A DNA stretch of 64,000 nt from Actinomucor elegans (taxonomy: Eukaryota > Mucoromycota > Mucoromycetes > Mucorales > Mucoraceae). The notes under the pieces are model-generated. The model was given only the letters and a program-made list of their open reading frames with translations. It did not search any database and was not told the DNA's origin. A program made the translations under genes and the position numbers. The DNA lies in NCBI GenBank assembly GCA_026027325.1, contig JAMSLZ010000001.1, forward strand, positions 2,604,001 to 2,668,000, in the 5' to 3' direction. Positions within the stretch are counted from its first letter, which is position 1; the number at the start of each line of letters is the position of its first letter. This document shows positions 21,122-30,091 of this stretch, piece after piece.

Positions 21122-21999
21122 CAGTAGTTTTACTGGCCGGTGCACAAAACTTTTAATTGCTATTACTCCGTCAATTTTTAAATTTAACCATATCAAATAA
21201 TATTGAGCTATAGCTCTAACATACTGCATGAAAATACTAAATGTTTAGGCTAGGGTTTATGTTACGTCATAGTGATAAAATGATGATAAACCGTTTTTTC
21301 AACTTTTAAAATTTGAGGGCTTTTCCGTTTTATGACGTAAATAGACCATAATCACTAATAATAATTCCGTTTATCTATTGATACTAATGAAACATTGCCT
21401 ATGGCAACGGAAAATTATATAAAGAAGCCTATTCTGATTCGTTTCAGCCATTCTCCTTTCTTCTTTCTTGACCATACTTCGTTCCATATAATGCCTTATA
21501 AAATCTCTCATAACAAGCGCGACAGCATCAAATCACTGGTACTAAAACAAGAGCCAACCAGTATTATTGCGCAACGTGTAGGAGTTTCAAAATGGACAGT
21601 AAACCGAATGAAAAACGAAATAGACCCAGAATACGTTCGACCTACCGGTGGTGGCCGTAGAATAGTGCCTCAACGTATTATGGTAACACTGAAATACAAA
21701 CTTCGAAGCGGATACTTAAGGAATGGTCGAGATGCACACAAATATTTAAACTCCCTCGGCTATTCAATCAGCTATAATGGGACTATAAAGTTGATCCATC
21801 AAACTGGACTTAAGGCTTATATTATGAAAAAGCGACCATATACCAAGGTTGATTATATGAAGGATAGACTCCAATACGCCAGAAAATACCATGGTTGGAC
21901 TGTTGAGCAATGGAAGAAAGTTGTATTTTCGGATGAAACGAAAATAAACATGTGGCAGTCTGATGGAGCTATTTATACATGGAAAGAGCCAGGCCAGAG

Positions 22000-22218
22000 A
22001 TAAACATTTACAACTACTTAATATTTTTAACTTTCCTAAAAAATCAAGGCATAAATATAATGTTGCCTTTTTATCCATAAATAAAATGTTGGTTACTTGT
22101 TCTATTTTAGAATAAAATTTATTTATATTATTATTTGTATTCAAAAAAATCTATTATTTCCTAATTTTTTTATATATTGTACTATTTTGAACATATTTCT
22201 GTAATACTAAATGTTCTT
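22000..22218 (-). repeat. Left 219-bp terminal direct repeat
   Basis: It begins ATAAACATTTAC and ends CTAAATGTTCTT, so the first and last 11 bases form an imperfect inverted repeat. It is identical by eye to 24283-24501 and, in the opposite orientation, to 28583-28801. On the minus strand, which is the element's coding direction, it contains a TATA-like CAATATATAAAAAAATTAGG. Confidence 0.92.
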
Positions 22219-22230
22219 CTTATTAATTGA

Positions 22231-23709
22231 TTAATTATTTTCTATTGATTTCCAATAATTCAAAATAGTATCATGTGATGTAAAATCTTTTTCTTTTACC
22301 CATGAATTATGTTCTTTACCATACTTTTTCCATTTTACAAAATATTCATATAAGTTCTTTACTTTTTTGTGTTTAATTATATATTGTATTTCATATATAT
22401 TTTGATCATTATTACTAGTGATATCTTCCTCCATTTGATCCATAATATCTATATTCACTTCATTTATATTTAAATTATTTAAAAATTGATTTTGTAATGA
22501 TTTTATATCAACGATATTTTCTATTTTATATTGTGTTTTTAATGTTACTTCTTTATTCATTTCAATATTATTTTTATAATAATAATCAAAATTATCATTT
22601 AGCCATTTGTTGTAATGGGCATTTTCTTCAATTCCAAATAACTCTGTAAAATATTTTATGTTCAGTAATACTATTGCTAATTTTAGCTGTATATTATATG
22701 TCTTATTATCTGTTATTCTAATCTTATTTTGTCCACTAAATCTTTTAAAAATACTACCTAATTCTGCAAAATATTTTTCTATTTTTGACCTTAATCCACC
22801 TAATTCTTCATTGAATTTTTTTTCATCTATGGTTAATTCAACTCCTTTATCTTTTTTTATAGGATAGCAAAAATTTTTCAAGGATATATTAAATCCAATA
22901 TTACTAAATTTTTCTATAAATTCTTTTACTGTGTTTTCATATAATCCATCAAAACATATACAATCTATTTCATTATAAAACTTATTGATATTTATGTCTA
23001 AAAGCATTTTATCATCAGTATTATTTCTACAAGGTAAGGAATCAGATATATAAACACATATTCTATTAATATCTATAATAAATTGTGTATTTAATCCATT
23101 TCTTTTTAATTTATACGAGAATAACTCTTTTTTATCTAGATTAATATCTTGATATGTTATACGATTATGGTGACCATCAATTAGTAATGTTACATTATCT
23201 AACATCATTGGATTAAATTTCTTAGCACAAAGTAATCTCAATGTATGTGTAGAAAAACATTTTTCTAATTTATTATTTATCCATTTTTCCAATAAATCAT
23301 AATTATTTATATATAATGATTGATATAATTTATAAAAACTAGTAGATGGAATATACATTTCCATTTCATTTATAGATTTTCCATTTAATAAATGTTCTAA
23401 TAATATCAATACTTTATCTGCTGTTATATATGGACCTGGTAGTTTTATATTGTTACATAAATCTGTCAAAAATACAAATGGAGCAATACTTCCTAATTTA
23501 ATATATATATTTTTTTTAATTCTATCAATATTTGGTATACTCGTTATTTTAGATCTATGATATTTCAATTCAACTTTATATATATATTCATTTTTCATAA
23601 ATTTCCAATACCTATTGTAAATATTTCTGTATTCATTTTCAATTAATAAGTCTATATGAGTGTTCATAAACAAATAAAATGATGTATTTTTATATAAAGA
23701 GAAATTCAA
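22231..23709 (-). CDS. DDE_Tnp_4/Harbinger-like transposase with C-terminal chromodomain
   Basis: The product has 492 residues. Residues about 175-360 show the DDE_Tnp_4 pattern: NVTLLIDGHHNRITY (first Asp), FSYKLKRNGLNTQFIID, YISDSLPCRNNTDDKML, DCICFDGLYENTV (second Asp) and GGLRSKIEKYFAELGSIFKRF (Glu in the helix before the aromatic block). The last 55 residues (YEIQYIIKHKKVKNLYEYFV, KWKKYGKEHNSWVKEKDF) form a chromodomain. Chromodomains read methylated histone tails and steer some gypsy integrases to heterochromatin, so a targeting role is plausible here (inference). Codon use is much more A/T-biased than in any neighbouring gene. The ATG at 23709 gives the longest frame; a second ATG 14 codons on is possible. 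Confidence 0.8.
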   Translation of the reverse strand: MNFSLYKNTSFYLFMNTHIDLLIENEYRNIYNRYWKFMKNEYIYKVELKYHRSKITSIPNIDRIKKNIYIKLGSIAPFVFLTDLCNNIKLPGPYITADKVLILLEHLLNGKSINEMEMYIPSTSFYKLYQSLYINNYDLLEKWINNKLEKCFSTHTLRLLCAKKFNPMMLDNVTLLIDGHHNRITYQDINLDKKELFSYKLKRNGLNTQFIIDINRICVYISDSLPCRNNTDDKMLLDININKFYNEIDCICFDGLYENTVKEFIEKFSNIGFNISLKNFCYPIKKDKGVELTIDEKKFNEELGGLRSKIEKYFAELGSIFKRFSGQNKIRITDNKTYNIQLKLAIVLLNIKYFTELFGIEENAHYNKWLNDNFDYYYKNNIEMNKEVTLKTQYKIENIVDIKSLQNQFLNNLNINEVNIDIMDQMEEDITSNNDQNIYEIQYIIKHKKVKNLYEYFVKWKKYGKEHNSWVKEKDFTSHDTILNYWKSIENN

Positions 23710-23788
23710 TTTTTAATATTTTCTATATTTAATAAACTTTTATTTATATATGAAAATTCAATTTTTAATATTTTCTATATTTTCCAAG
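23699..23788. repeat. Duplicated about 30-bp segment between the two genes
   Basis: AAATTCAATTTTTAATATTTTCTATATTT occurs at about 23702 and again at about 23754. One copy is the 3' end of the HUH-like gene and the other overlaps the start of the transposase gene. This is a small tandem-type duplication at the gene junction. Confidence 0.75.
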
Positions 23789-24126
23789 AACTTATGATTT
23801 CTTTTTGCATAATCTAACCATGATTTAAAATTATAAATTTCTTTAATACTAACATATCCTTTTCTTAAACACCAGGATTTGAAATATTCATTTCTAACTT
23901 TTTCGTTATCATCTAAAATTGTTTTTATCACTAAATTGGCATGGATATTTGTATTGTTTTCACCAACATCATAGAAAGGACCACTATATAAAATTTTATC
24001 AATATTTTTTATATTTCCAACCCATTGCAGTATTTTCTTGTTTAATATTTCGGATGATTTATTCTTGACATCTTTTTTTTCAGGATTTAGAGTTAAAACC
24101 ACAGCATAATAATAGATTTTTTCCAT
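23758..24126 (-). CDS. Small protein with HUH replication-initiator-like motif order
   Basis: The product has 122 residues from the ATG at 24126 (an upstream in-frame ATG at 24165 would add 13). Three features match the usual arrangement of a small HUH endonuclease domain: a beta strand VVLTLNPEKK at residues 9-18, GENNTNIHANLVIK at 55-68 with a His-x-Asn in the metal-binding position, and WLDYAKRNHK at 103-112 with a Tyr followed by Lys and Arg. Such proteins nick single-stranded DNA to start rolling-circle replication. The second metal ligand is Asn rather than His, and no helicase domain follows. The assignment therefore rests on motif order and spacing only. The gene lies 48 bp upstream of the transposase in the same direction. 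Confidence 0.45.
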   Translation of the reverse strand: MEKIYYYAVVLTLNPEKKDVKNKSSEILNKKILQWVGNIKNIDKILYSGPFYDVGENNTNIHANLVIKTILDDNEKVRNEYFKSWCLRKGYVSIKEIYNFKSWLDYAKRNHKFLENIENIKN

Positions 24127-24148
24127 TAAATATAATATTGATGTTATT

Positions 24149-24361
24149 TTAAAAATAATTCTCAAATATTATAGATACTTTTATATTTTCCAAAATATCA
24201 TGCCAAGAATTAGATGCCAAGGAAGTTGTTTTTAGATTTCTCAATGTGATTAAACGCAATGGAAGTCTAAAAATAGGACAAGATAAACATTTACAACTAC
24301 TTAATATTTTTAACTTTCCTAAAAAATCAAGGCATAAATATAATGTTGCCTTTTTATCCAT
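24149..24361 (-). CDS. Short reading frame running from the terminal repeat into the element
   Basis: The ATG lies inside the right terminal repeat and the 70-codon frame leaves the repeat at 24283. The part outside the repeat (PIFRLPLRLITLRNLKTTSL, SWHDILENI) is less AT-rich than the rest of the element and reads like a Leu-rich fragment. I do not recognise it. It may be a captured scrap of host DNA or not a gene at all. Confidence 0.25.
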   Translation of the reverse strand: MDKKATLYLCLDFLGKLKILSSCKCLSCPIFRLPLRLITLRNLKTTSLASNSWHDILENIKVSIIFENYF

Positions 24362-24501
24362 AAATAAAATGTTGGTTACTTGTTCTATTTTAGAATAAAA
24401 TTTATTTATATTATTATTTGTATTCAAAAAAATCTATTATTTCCTAATTTTTTTATATATTGTACTATTTTGAACATATTTCTGTAATACTAAATGTTCT
24501 T
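24283..24501 (-). repeat. Right 219-bp terminal direct repeat (5' with respect to the genes)
   Basis: It lies upstream of both minus-strand genes. The TATA-like CAATATATAAAAAAATTAGG (about 24443-24462 on the complement) could serve as their promoter (inference). Confidence 0.92.
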
Positions 24502-25243
24502 CAGAGAGATCTTCCTCATAATACTCGTATGACCAAAAAGTTTGGTGGCGGAAGCCTAATGATATGGAGCTGTATGACATCACGGGGAGTAGGCTACGCT
24601 AGTCAAGTACTACAAAAAACTATGGATTCAGACTGTTATGTTGAAATCTTGGGTACATCGTTTAAGGATACTTTGGACTACTACGGCTGGAATCCTGATG
24701 ATGTGATTCTTCAGCAAGATGGCGACTCAAAACATACATCCAAAGTAACTAAAAAATGGCTTAAAGCAAACAACATACAGTATATGAATAAGTGGCCACC
24801 ATATAGCCCAGACTTAAATCCGATAGAACATCTATGGCATCATGTTAAGTCAAAACTAGGCCAATATGACACCCCTCCAAAAACAAAGCGAGAACTATTC
24901 AAACGATTTGAGACGGAGTGGTACAAATTTACCAAAGCAGACATGGAGCCGTACTATAACAGTTTACCTAAAAGAATAGAGCAAGTCCTTAGAGCTAAAG
25001 GTGGCTATACTCGATATTAAAAGACAGCACGTTTAATTTTCTCAGCCAAAAAATTCCAAAATATAATTTTAGTAACGTTTCCAAATGTAGTTACTATACA
25101 GTTCATGTTTAAATTTGGCATATATCATTTAAATATACCAACAAACATACATTTAAAGTTTGGGCTTACTCGAGTGACTGTACGTTAAGAAACATTAAAA
25201 AAAGCAAATTTATATTTTTGTGCACCGGCCAGTGTAACTACTG

Positions 25244-28200: not shown

Positions 28201-30091
28201 GATATAATACCACGCGTTCTGAACGTAAACTGCAAATACGGTATCCTACAGATAAAAACAAGTCACGCAAAAGAATACTATCTGCTAGAAACGGGACTGA
28301 AAATAAAACAAAAGGAAATTACGCCTTTTCATCTTTCCCAACAGTTTCTACAAACTACGATGATAATACCAATACATCATCCAACCACATTGACTCATCC
28401 AATACTACATCGTTCGATAGTTACAATAAGACACCTCTTATTTCTCGCGCAATGCAATATGCTGATTATATGACACCACCTGAAAAGGATCGCGTTTCTA
28501 TTATTATGAAAGCACACTTGCTTGGCCATTTTGGCGTAAATGCAATTGAGAAAACTATTCACAATGATTACAAATTACATTGAAGAACATTTAGTATTAC
28601 AGAAATATGTTCAAAATAGTACAATATATAAAAAAATTAGGAAATAATAGATTTTTTTGAATACAAATAATAATATAAATAAATTTTATTCTAAAATAGA
28701 ACAAGTAACCAACATTTTATTTATGGATAAAAAGGCAACATTATATTTATGCCTTGATTTTTTAGGAAAGTTAAAAATATTAAGTAGTTGTAAATGTTTA
28801 TCATTGGACTAATTTGCGACAAGACATTCAAAGAGTTATCAATGATTGTGAAGCTTGCCAAGCACATGGTATCTATCGAGTTGGTTATCACCCTCCTAGA
28901 AGCGTGTTGCCTGACGGTGTCTTCGATCATATCTGTATAGATCTCGGTGATTTCAATACTACATCATCTCGTGGTAATAACTTTATGTTAGTTGTAGTAG
29001 ATTACTTTAGTCGATTTACAATTCTACGTGCACTCCCTGACAAGAGTAGTTACAGTGTAGCAAAAGAATTACTTCACATATGCTGTCAGTTCGGATTCCC
29101 TCGGATCATCACGCATGACAATGGTATGGAATTTGTGAATGAAGTGGTTAAACAATTTATACAAATGAGTGGCATGGATAGACGGCTTAGCTTGCCCTAT
29201 ACTCCTACTGGAAACAGTGTAGTAGAAAGCTATGTTGGCATCTGTAAACGTAGTATCATCAAAGCGTTAACTGCTAATGCTGTTGAACCTGAATCTTGGG
29301 ATTTGTATTTAGACGTGATCCAATACTCTGTCAATTGTCAGTATTCGCGATTGCATAAATCTCGTCCTTTTGCGGTTATGTTCAATAGACAGCCTAATGA
29401 CTTTATCGACTACACGGATGTAAAACCTACCATCAATATCGAGAAATCTGATAGTAAACTCATTGATAAGAAGCTGAAATATGTCAAAGATGTCATTATT
29501 CCTTCTATTGCTAAACGCATTAAAGAGACACAATTAAACGATCATTTAAAATTCCAAAAGAATAACAAGATCATTGAAACAAAGTACCCTCTTAATTCTA
29601 AAGTTATGATCGTGAACGTACTCAAATCATCTAAACTGCAGCCCAGATGGTTAGGTCCTTTTATCATTAAAGGCTACACCAAGCATGGTAGTTACATTTT
29701 AGAAGATCTCACTGGCTCTTTATTATCTCGTGATGTACCTACGCATCAGATAAGACTGATTCAATCAGGATATCAACGATCTGAAAGCGAACTTAACGAG
29801 AAACATTATGAGGTACAAGCAATTGTAAACCATCGACTCTTGCCAGACGGTGAATACGAGTATTACGTGCATTGGGTTGGATACGATGACCAAGAAAAAT
29901 ACAATACTTGGCAGACGGTTGATACCTTCGATTCGAAGAAACCTATTCAAGACTATTGGACACGTCGTCAAGCAACCATTGCAAGCACAACAGGTAGATC
30001 CCTGCCTAATACTATCAACAAGCGAAGAATACCTGCTCGTAATAAACACAGCAGATCGTTTGTACCTAAAGCATATAATACAAGATCTTGA
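25244..30091 (+). pseudogene. Gypsy gag-pol polyprotein, N-terminally truncated and interrupted once
   Basis: In order along the frame: gag core (LMFKNEFLSRFG and onward), a zinc-knuckle-like CHSCGAPGWTRQHRC (about 25945), and an aspartic protease AYLDTGCTFSIC (about 26340). Then come RT with VYIDDICIS-type catalytic box at about 27318, RNase H (ATDASKTGIGG at about 27770), integrase with CIDLGDF, THDNGMEF and VVESYVG (about 28935-29230), and a chromodomain YEYYVHWVGYDDQEKYNTW near 29850. The inserted repeat plus a CATTG duplication separates two open segments (to 28582, and from 28802). Leaving them out makes the frame continuous. With the 5' end missing the copy cannot be complete. Confidence 0.92.
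28583..28801 (+). mobile_element. Solo 219-bp repeat of the 22000-24501 element
   Basis: The sequence is the exact complement, by eye, of the two terminal repeats at 22000-22218 and 24283-24501. It is flanked by CATTG (28578-28582 and 28802-28806). The arrangement is that of a solo LTR. It may instead be a short non-autonomous element in its own right, given its inverted 11-bp ends. Confidence 0.9.

Follow-up and report, generated by a model that had tools for sequence, protein, structure and literature searches.

How does a DNA transposase gene come to lie between long direct repeats that match each other as exactly as those of a retrotransposon? The question is raised by a 64,000-nucleotide window of the Actinomucor elegans genome (assembly GCA_026027325.1, contig JAMSLZ010000001.1, forward-strand positions 2,604,001 to 2,668,000; coordinates without a contig name are those of the window), in which an element had been predicted, from the letters alone, to combine long terminal repeat (LTR)-like ends with a Harbinger-type DDE transposase and a HUH-like protein. 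The element, a copy of what we call family A, spans 2,504 bp (21999-24502) and consists of two 221-bp units in direct orientation (21999..22219 and 24282..24502, both plus strand), here termed long terminal direct repeats (LTDRs), around an internal region (INT) of 2,062 bp (22220..24281). The two units agree at 221 of 221 bases, which bears out the identity that had been judged by eye and corrects the length first given, 219 bp. Each unit has its own imperfect inverted ends (GATAAACATTTA and GAAGAACATTTA), of the form GA..TC. In agreement with the original prediction, the open reading frame (ORF) list places two genes on the minus strand of INT, P1 (22231..23667), a 478-amino-acid transposase with a DDE_Tnp_4 domain and a C-terminal chromodomain, and P2 (23758..24126), a 122-amino-acid protein of predicted HUH-endonuclease-like topology, and the G+C content of 20% bears out the extreme AT bias. 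The trinucleotide AGA flanks the element on the left (21996..21998) and on the right (24503..24505). The reading that we prefer, and to which we give an even chance, is of a composite-like DNA transposon moved as a replicative circle of one unit plus INT, from which two units result.

The window element is not a chance arrangement, because at least 36 full-length matches of about 100% identity occur on many contigs. Searching the genome (36.5 Mb, 27 contigs) with the element returned at least 43 matches, with full-length ones of 2,499-2,502 bp; the best 40 of 127 candidates were scored, so that copy counts are lower bounds. At least 17 full-length copies, the window copy included, tie at the top score against the window copy, and, judged by these sequences, family A is a very recent burst. 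A stretch of 36 bases from the beginning of the LTDR has 94 exact matches in the genome, and these group as 34 pairs (spacing 2,280-2,283 bp), one triple and 23 singles. Among the singles are solo units, copies that have been truncated and both ends of a copy that a 158-bp gap divides. At C22:9971-14752 the triple forms a tandem array, unit-INT-unit-INT-unit, with the target duplication at its outer ends and a single position of difference between its two unit-INT repeats. Solo units thus do exist, and two unrelated ones might in principle have come to stand around a gene pair by chance; the constant spacing of the 34 pairs, the duplications at the outer ends and the recurrence of the plan in five other families refute this explanation, which we regard as next to impossible. 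Nor are the direct repeats unrelated flanking elements, as they accompany the element in all six families read (see below).

To define the insertion site, we compared the flanks of 44 family A insertions, 35 full elements and 9 solo units, leaving out L055, whose last bases differ; about seven other single units lie outside this sample, and L050/L056 and L057/L071, which share flanks and are probably segmental duplicates, were counted as they stand. A perfect 3-bp duplication was present in 39 of the 44 (32/35 full elements and 7/9 solo units), against 3.8 expected when flanks are paired by shuffling. The base preceding the duplication is C in 33 of these 39 cases and the base following it is G in 22, giving a preferred target C-NNN-G; the duplications themselves comprise 18 different trinucleotides, so the preference sits outside them. 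A 5-bp duplication, CAGAG, had been proposed for the window copy. CAGAG does stand on both sides, but the duplication is the 3-bp AGA, and the longer match arises because AGA and the element's own terminal G and C meet a C..G target; once these terminal bases are assigned to the element, the cases that mismatch at 5 bp become 3 bp. The window copy interrupts a host transposase gene, which offered a second view of the left duplication. A 200-bp query joining both flanks with one AGA had 27 matches in the genome, 16 of them covering the whole query (15 at 98-100% identity and one at 82%); these are uninterrupted copies of the host gene and represent the empty site, against which the window copy shows a clean 3-bp duplication.

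The same anatomy recurs with other transposases. A genome search with P1, in which the best 89 of 427 candidates were scored, gave at least 90 matches, forming, beyond family A, groups at 65, 59, 51, 49, 47 (two groups), 43 and 35% identity, several of them with copies of identical score. One copy was read for each of five sister families, B, C, D, E and F, whose transposases are 49, 51, 47, 47 and 43% identical to P1. In every copy two direct repeats of 220-400 bp surround a single DDE-chromodomain gene, and every repeat has inverted ends beginning with GA. The target duplications, AAA, AGA, ACT, ATA and ATA, respectively, are all perfect 3-bp repeats, so that all six family representatives, A to F, have one. 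Within each element the units are nearly or fully identical (396/400 bases in B, 220/220 in C, 239/239 in D, 223/223 in E and 292/292 in F), whereas between families they cannot be aligned, sharing at most short AT-rich scraps. The family E unit occurs in the genome as four pairs spaced exactly 2,025 bp apart, and the family F unit as three pairs at 2,491-2,492 bp and an older one at 2,431 bp, each family with single and partial units in addition. Family F, an older family, includes units at 97-99% identity. The common core of families A to F is a DDE_Tnp_4 transposase with a chromodomain, and the presence of apparently identical copies in several families indicates recent movement.

These data bear directly on whether the repeats are LTRs. 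Identical direct repeats, solo repeats and tandem arrays are known from LTR elements too, and one could imagine a non-autonomous LTR retrotransposon, similar to a terminal-repeat retrotransposon in miniature (TRIM), that has captured a transposase gene and is mobilized by reverse transcriptase (RT) in trans. However, the duplications are 3 bp rather than the 4-6 bp of LTR retrotransposons, the ends of each unit form an imperfect inverted repeat (about 8-17 bp) and are not TG..CA, TGG stands at the place of a primer-binding site in only one of the six families (by eye), and the same transposase gene is present in all six. The ORF lists of the six elements, from which the presence of RT was judged, contain no further long ORF besides P1 and, in family A, P2. 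An LTR retrotransposon proper is rejected on account of the 3-bp duplication, the inverted unit ends, the DDE_Tnp_4 transposase and the lack of RT in these lists, and we consider the TRIM-like variant very improbable. No RT-encoding relative was seen either, although no search was aimed at reverse transcriptase. An 'LTR-like' element with a transposase domain in Mucor lusitanicus is grouped by its reverse transcriptase in the available portion of PMC11943222, and is thus another element.

The transposase itself points to a DNA transposon. A Pfam scan of P1 (478 amino acids from the first ATG) matched DDE_Tnp_4 (E=2.1e-08) and Chromo (E=9.3e-08), and in each of the three families scanned (A, F and G) DDE_Tnp_4 (PF13359) exceeded its gathering score. 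With residues numbered on the 477-amino-acid query that begins after the ATG, the catalytic triad D163, D239 and E296 is invariant in 32 of 32 aligned rows, and the cage positions of the chromodomain are Y424, W445 and Y448. These features uphold the predicted DDE_Tnp_4 transposase, and the 3-bp duplication fits Harbinger. By its transposase, short inverted ends and 3-bp duplications the element fits PIF/Harbinger (PHIS), for which duplications of 0, 2 or 3 bp are given in the portion of PMC12730594 available. It differs from PIF/Harbinger in its long direct repeats and its chromodomain, in duplicating many trinucleotides within C-NNN-G in place of the canonical TNA (TTA/TAA), and in that no Myb/SANT partner (such as Nuwa) was found, P2 having no Pfam match to a Myb/SANT domain. 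Such a partner is not obligatory, as PHISTA is also described without one in the same portion of that paper (PMC12730594). Chromodomains are placed on Gypsy integrases and not on Harbinger in the extract of PMC12477816 to hand.

How, then, could such an element keep two identical repeats? Because the repeats are identical within a family and unalignable between families, one repeat must be copied into two, or the two equalized, in every cycle. The inverted ends of each unit, the 3-bp duplication, the DDE transposase and the absence of any sign of RT favour DNA transposition. We propose that the 221-bp unit is the true substrate, with P1, to judge from its family, recognizing the inverted ends GA..TC and inserting preferably into C-NNN-G, where it would generate the 3-bp duplication seen there. 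The mobile form would be a circle of one unit plus INT, 2,283 bp in family A and 1,879-2,492 bp in families B to F. The transposase would join both ends of the circle's single unit to the target and the unit would be replicated, as in the formation of bacterial cointegrates, leaving two identical units around INT, much as after reverse transcription yet presumably with no RNA involved. Recombination between units could then release a new circle, with a solo unit left behind, or build a tandem array; both solo units and an array are present in the genome. In four of the six families the inner flanks of the units are inverted (TAA..TTA type), which only 2 of 20,000 random draws reach, as if the recognition site were complete only in the context INT-unit-INT. 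The chromodomain probably steers insertion to heterochromatin, to judge from its cage residues and from an enrichment of family A loci within 100 kb of contig ends (27 of 56, compared with 11.8% expected). A fuller version, in which a circle of about 2 kb with one 220-400-bp unit integrates by replicative DDE transposition, a HUH-like nuclease replicates or opens the circle in family A and the chromodomain guides it to heterochromatin, making a eukaryotic counterpart of bacterial cointegrate-forming elements, is put forward tentatively, and we would not wager on all of its parts holding together.

Several observations weigh against the one-unit circle. No circle was observed, and the genome has no unit-unit junction with 0-20 bases between the units. 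The longest contig is 1.6-2.7 kb for 63 of 73 P1 relatives (among which the only named ones are from Mucor flavus); such contigs fit a circle, and fit equally an assembly graph collapsed at repeats. Family F lacks the symmetry of the inner flanks and family A has only 2 bp of it, and a perfect 3-bp duplication is missing from three of the 35 full elements and two of the nine solo units. Gene conversion or recombination could also keep the pairs identical. Finally, although the units of family A are identical in 29 of 36 rows (six rows differ and one was unscored), a T167 deletion in a T run is confined to the first unit at L063, L067 and L072 and to the second at L070, and is present in two of three units at L062; the other differences are an A145 deletion at L066 and one substitution at L067. 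If not a sequencing error, the T167 deletion would be a shared one-sided variant favouring movement of the whole composite, although this test is weak in family A because all its units are practically identical.

Cut-and-paste is the textbook route of PIF/Harbinger elements, and the whole unit-INT-unit might move from its outermost ends by cut-and-paste, or by copy-out-paste-in, with recombination, gene conversion or unequal crossover homogenizing the units and solo units arising by recombination or moving alone. Such a route fits the solo units that have duplications as well as the tandem array, and would fit the T167 deletion confined to the first unit at three loci, provided again that this is real. 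It would, however, need a separate homogenizing process in all six families, whose pairs are 99-100% identical and whose units are unalignable between families, and it leaves the inverted inner flanks of four of the six families without a reason. We rate this explanation, which closely resembles the proposal made for KolobokP by Kojima and Bao in the accessible part of their paper (PMC9587614), as a real contender that is somewhat improbable.

The remaining gene, P2, had been taken for a rolling-circle-type protein. When the surrounding DNA was shuffled 300 times with dinucleotides approximately preserved, no shuffle reached the 122 codons of the P2 ORF. A search with the single sequence brought up 12 relatives and a profile search 22, most of them on contigs about 2 kb long. 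HUH nucleases have a β-α-β-β-α-β-α core with H-x-H on the middle strand and, on the last helix, a catalytic tyrosine followed by a lysine (YxxK). An AlphaFold2 model of P2 (mean pLDDT 83, from 13 aligned rows) has the order strand-helix-strand-strand-helix-strand-helix; H62 and N64 fall on strand three and Y106 on the final long helix. L11, D53, N60, H62, N64, Y106 and N110 are shared by all 15 rows, every one of which has H-x-N where HUH proteins have H-x-H; Y106 is followed by lysine at +2 in 14/15 rows and at +3 by lysine in 3/15 and arginine in 12/15. In a structural search of BFVD, 14 of the best 50 rows were named, six of these as Rep proteins or replication initiators (from E 4.5e-3 upwards), one as a parvovirus nonstructural protein and the rest as uncharacterized or unrelated proteins; the six rows below 1e-3 (best 1.4e-4) were all nameless. 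Foldseek against the PDB returned many ferredoxin-like folds (S6, ACT, IsdG), none below E 1e-3; the IS608 transposase was matched at E 0.014. The best 50 rows of VIA-align 2 contained no HUH protein, which excludes nothing; the P2 sequence had only chance-level matches in Pfam, PHROGs and PDB profiles, with no Rep family among them, and the conserved Cys/His of the His-Cys box of His-Me finger nucleases are missing by eye. On this model, P2 appears to be a HUH-like protein in which Asn replaces the second His; as a putative accessory nuclease it may, speculatively, nick or replicate the circle.

P2 was also considered as a core gene and rejected, as the copies of families B to F that were read contain no P2-like ORF of at least 70 amino acids and no P2 match; P2 is thus accessory and not needed for the anatomy. 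The predicted fold agrees with the HUH-like protein originally proposed, and its place as a core part of the element was not upheld. Elsewhere in the genome, 17 loci make up a second P2 family (identity 70% at 16 of them and 67% at the other; among them C22:747639, C3:188207, C3:203187, C4:33682, C5:9472, C8:158442 and C11:15500), in which the matched stretch of every locus is broken by a single in-frame TAA. A third family (42% identity) has two loci, and its reading frame is open. None of these second- and third-family loci lies within 1 kb of any listed P1 match, and the second family is perhaps a non-autonomous element family carrying only P2.

The locus had alternatively been read as a plasmid- or virus-like replicon able to integrate, in which P2 would be the initiator multiplying an extrachromosomal circle and P1 would integrate it. 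The HUH-like topology of the P2 model, the Rep proteins among the best 50 BFVD rows, the invariance of H62, N64 and Y106 and the roughly 2-kb contigs of P2 relatives are in its favour. Set against these are the absence of P2 from the B to F copies, the in-frame stops of the 17-locus family and its distance from listed P1 matches, the lack of any Rep family match to the P2 sequence and the unrelated proteins among the named BFVD rows. In addition, neither P1 nor profile A2 found a relative in IMG/VR, nor did P1 in a plasmid collection or P2 in a phage collection. This replicon found no counterpart in these collections and is, in our estimate, unlikely.

The closest known architecture is that of KolobokP, described by Kojima and Bao (2022), in the portions of the paper available (PMC9587614), as LTDR-INT-LTDR elements that encode a His-Me finger nuclease, are distributed over seven animal phyla and also occur as solo LTDRs and multimers, and as 'unlike any other DNA transposons' for their long terminal direct repeats. 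Besides the overall plan, the likeness extends to LTDRs with their own short inverted ends that begin with RR and end with YY, to solo LTDRs and multimers of the form (LTDR-INT)n-LTDR, the duplications being at the outer ends, and to a DDD/E transposase with a small nuclease (here the predicted HUH-like protein of family A) in INT. In contrast, our elements have a DDE_Tnp_4 transposase with a chromodomain, in which the Kolobok signature C/DxxH between the second D and E is present in 0 of 32 rows; their accessory protein is HUH-like (family A) rather than a His-Me finger nuclease; they occur in a fungus rather than in animals; and they are smaller, 2.1-2.8 kb compared with 4.0-4.7 kb for autonomous oyster families, with units of 220-400 bp compared with about 450 or 660 bp. 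Those portions (PMC9587614) leave the choice between circle and crossover open for KolobokP. They also offer a parallel to the one-unit circle in IS26/IS6 translocatable units and bacterial composite transposons, in which a short unit with inverted ends flanks cargo as direct repeats and a circle of one unit plus cargo is the proposed mobile form (PMC9587614). The elements described here differ in that the transposase gene is in INT and not in the unit, in that they are eukaryotic and in that the circle is only proposed. TRIMs, for their part, share the identical direct repeats, solo repeats and tandem arrays and differ from our elements, in which each repeat has inverted ends, the duplication is 3 bp, the transposase is DDE_Tnp_4 and no RT signals were seen.

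In the open-access library searched we found no description of LTDR-INT-LTDR on a PIF/Harbinger-type transposase in fungi, in line with the suggestion of an undescribed transposon type, from which the rolling-circle-type protein has to be struck as a core component. The LTDR plan on another transposase lineage and in another kingdom suggests that it may have originated repeatedly, and that direct repeats are no proof of retrotransposition; we expect that automatic annotation might file such elements as LTR elements or TRIMs. If the fuller version of the circle model is correct, long and always identical 'LTRs' would arise without reverse transcription, and the composite LTDR architecture would have a second, independent origin besides KolobokP. 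At least six families share one 36.5-Mb genome, several of them apparently moved recently, and the question of how the two repeats of a composite DNA transposon stay identical thereby becomes directly testable.

A more distant group, family G (35% identity to P1), represented by L081 (1094-2503) with L019 (66-1499), at C8:42900-46936, and by L086, has a DDE_Tnp_4-chromodomain transposase. The family G stretches that were read have inverted, not direct, repeats, with no exact 20-base direct repeat more than 1,200 bp apart in the stretch read, which stops before the far end, and family G may show the ancestral form. Its second ORF (478 amino acids read) has no Pfam or PHROGs match and is interrupted by a family A insertion (C8:46936), so that relatives are nested in one another. 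Another family A insertion lies in an inverted repeat beside a family G gene (L043, C12:3672396-3677049).

Within the window, which contains no tRNA genes, the interrupted host gene is a Tc1/mariner-type transposase ORF on the plus strand, with Pfam matches on both halves outside the element: the 5' part (21395..21998) matches HTH_Tnp_Tc3_2 at E=2.2e-05, below its cut-off, and the 3' part (24503..25020) matches DDE_3 at E=2.9e-11. The host element is itself a young repeat, with six copies of the 200-bp empty site at 100% identity and top score. A solo family A unit lies 4 kb from the element on the minus strand (28582..28802), flanked by the 3-bp duplication AAT in the orientation of the unit.

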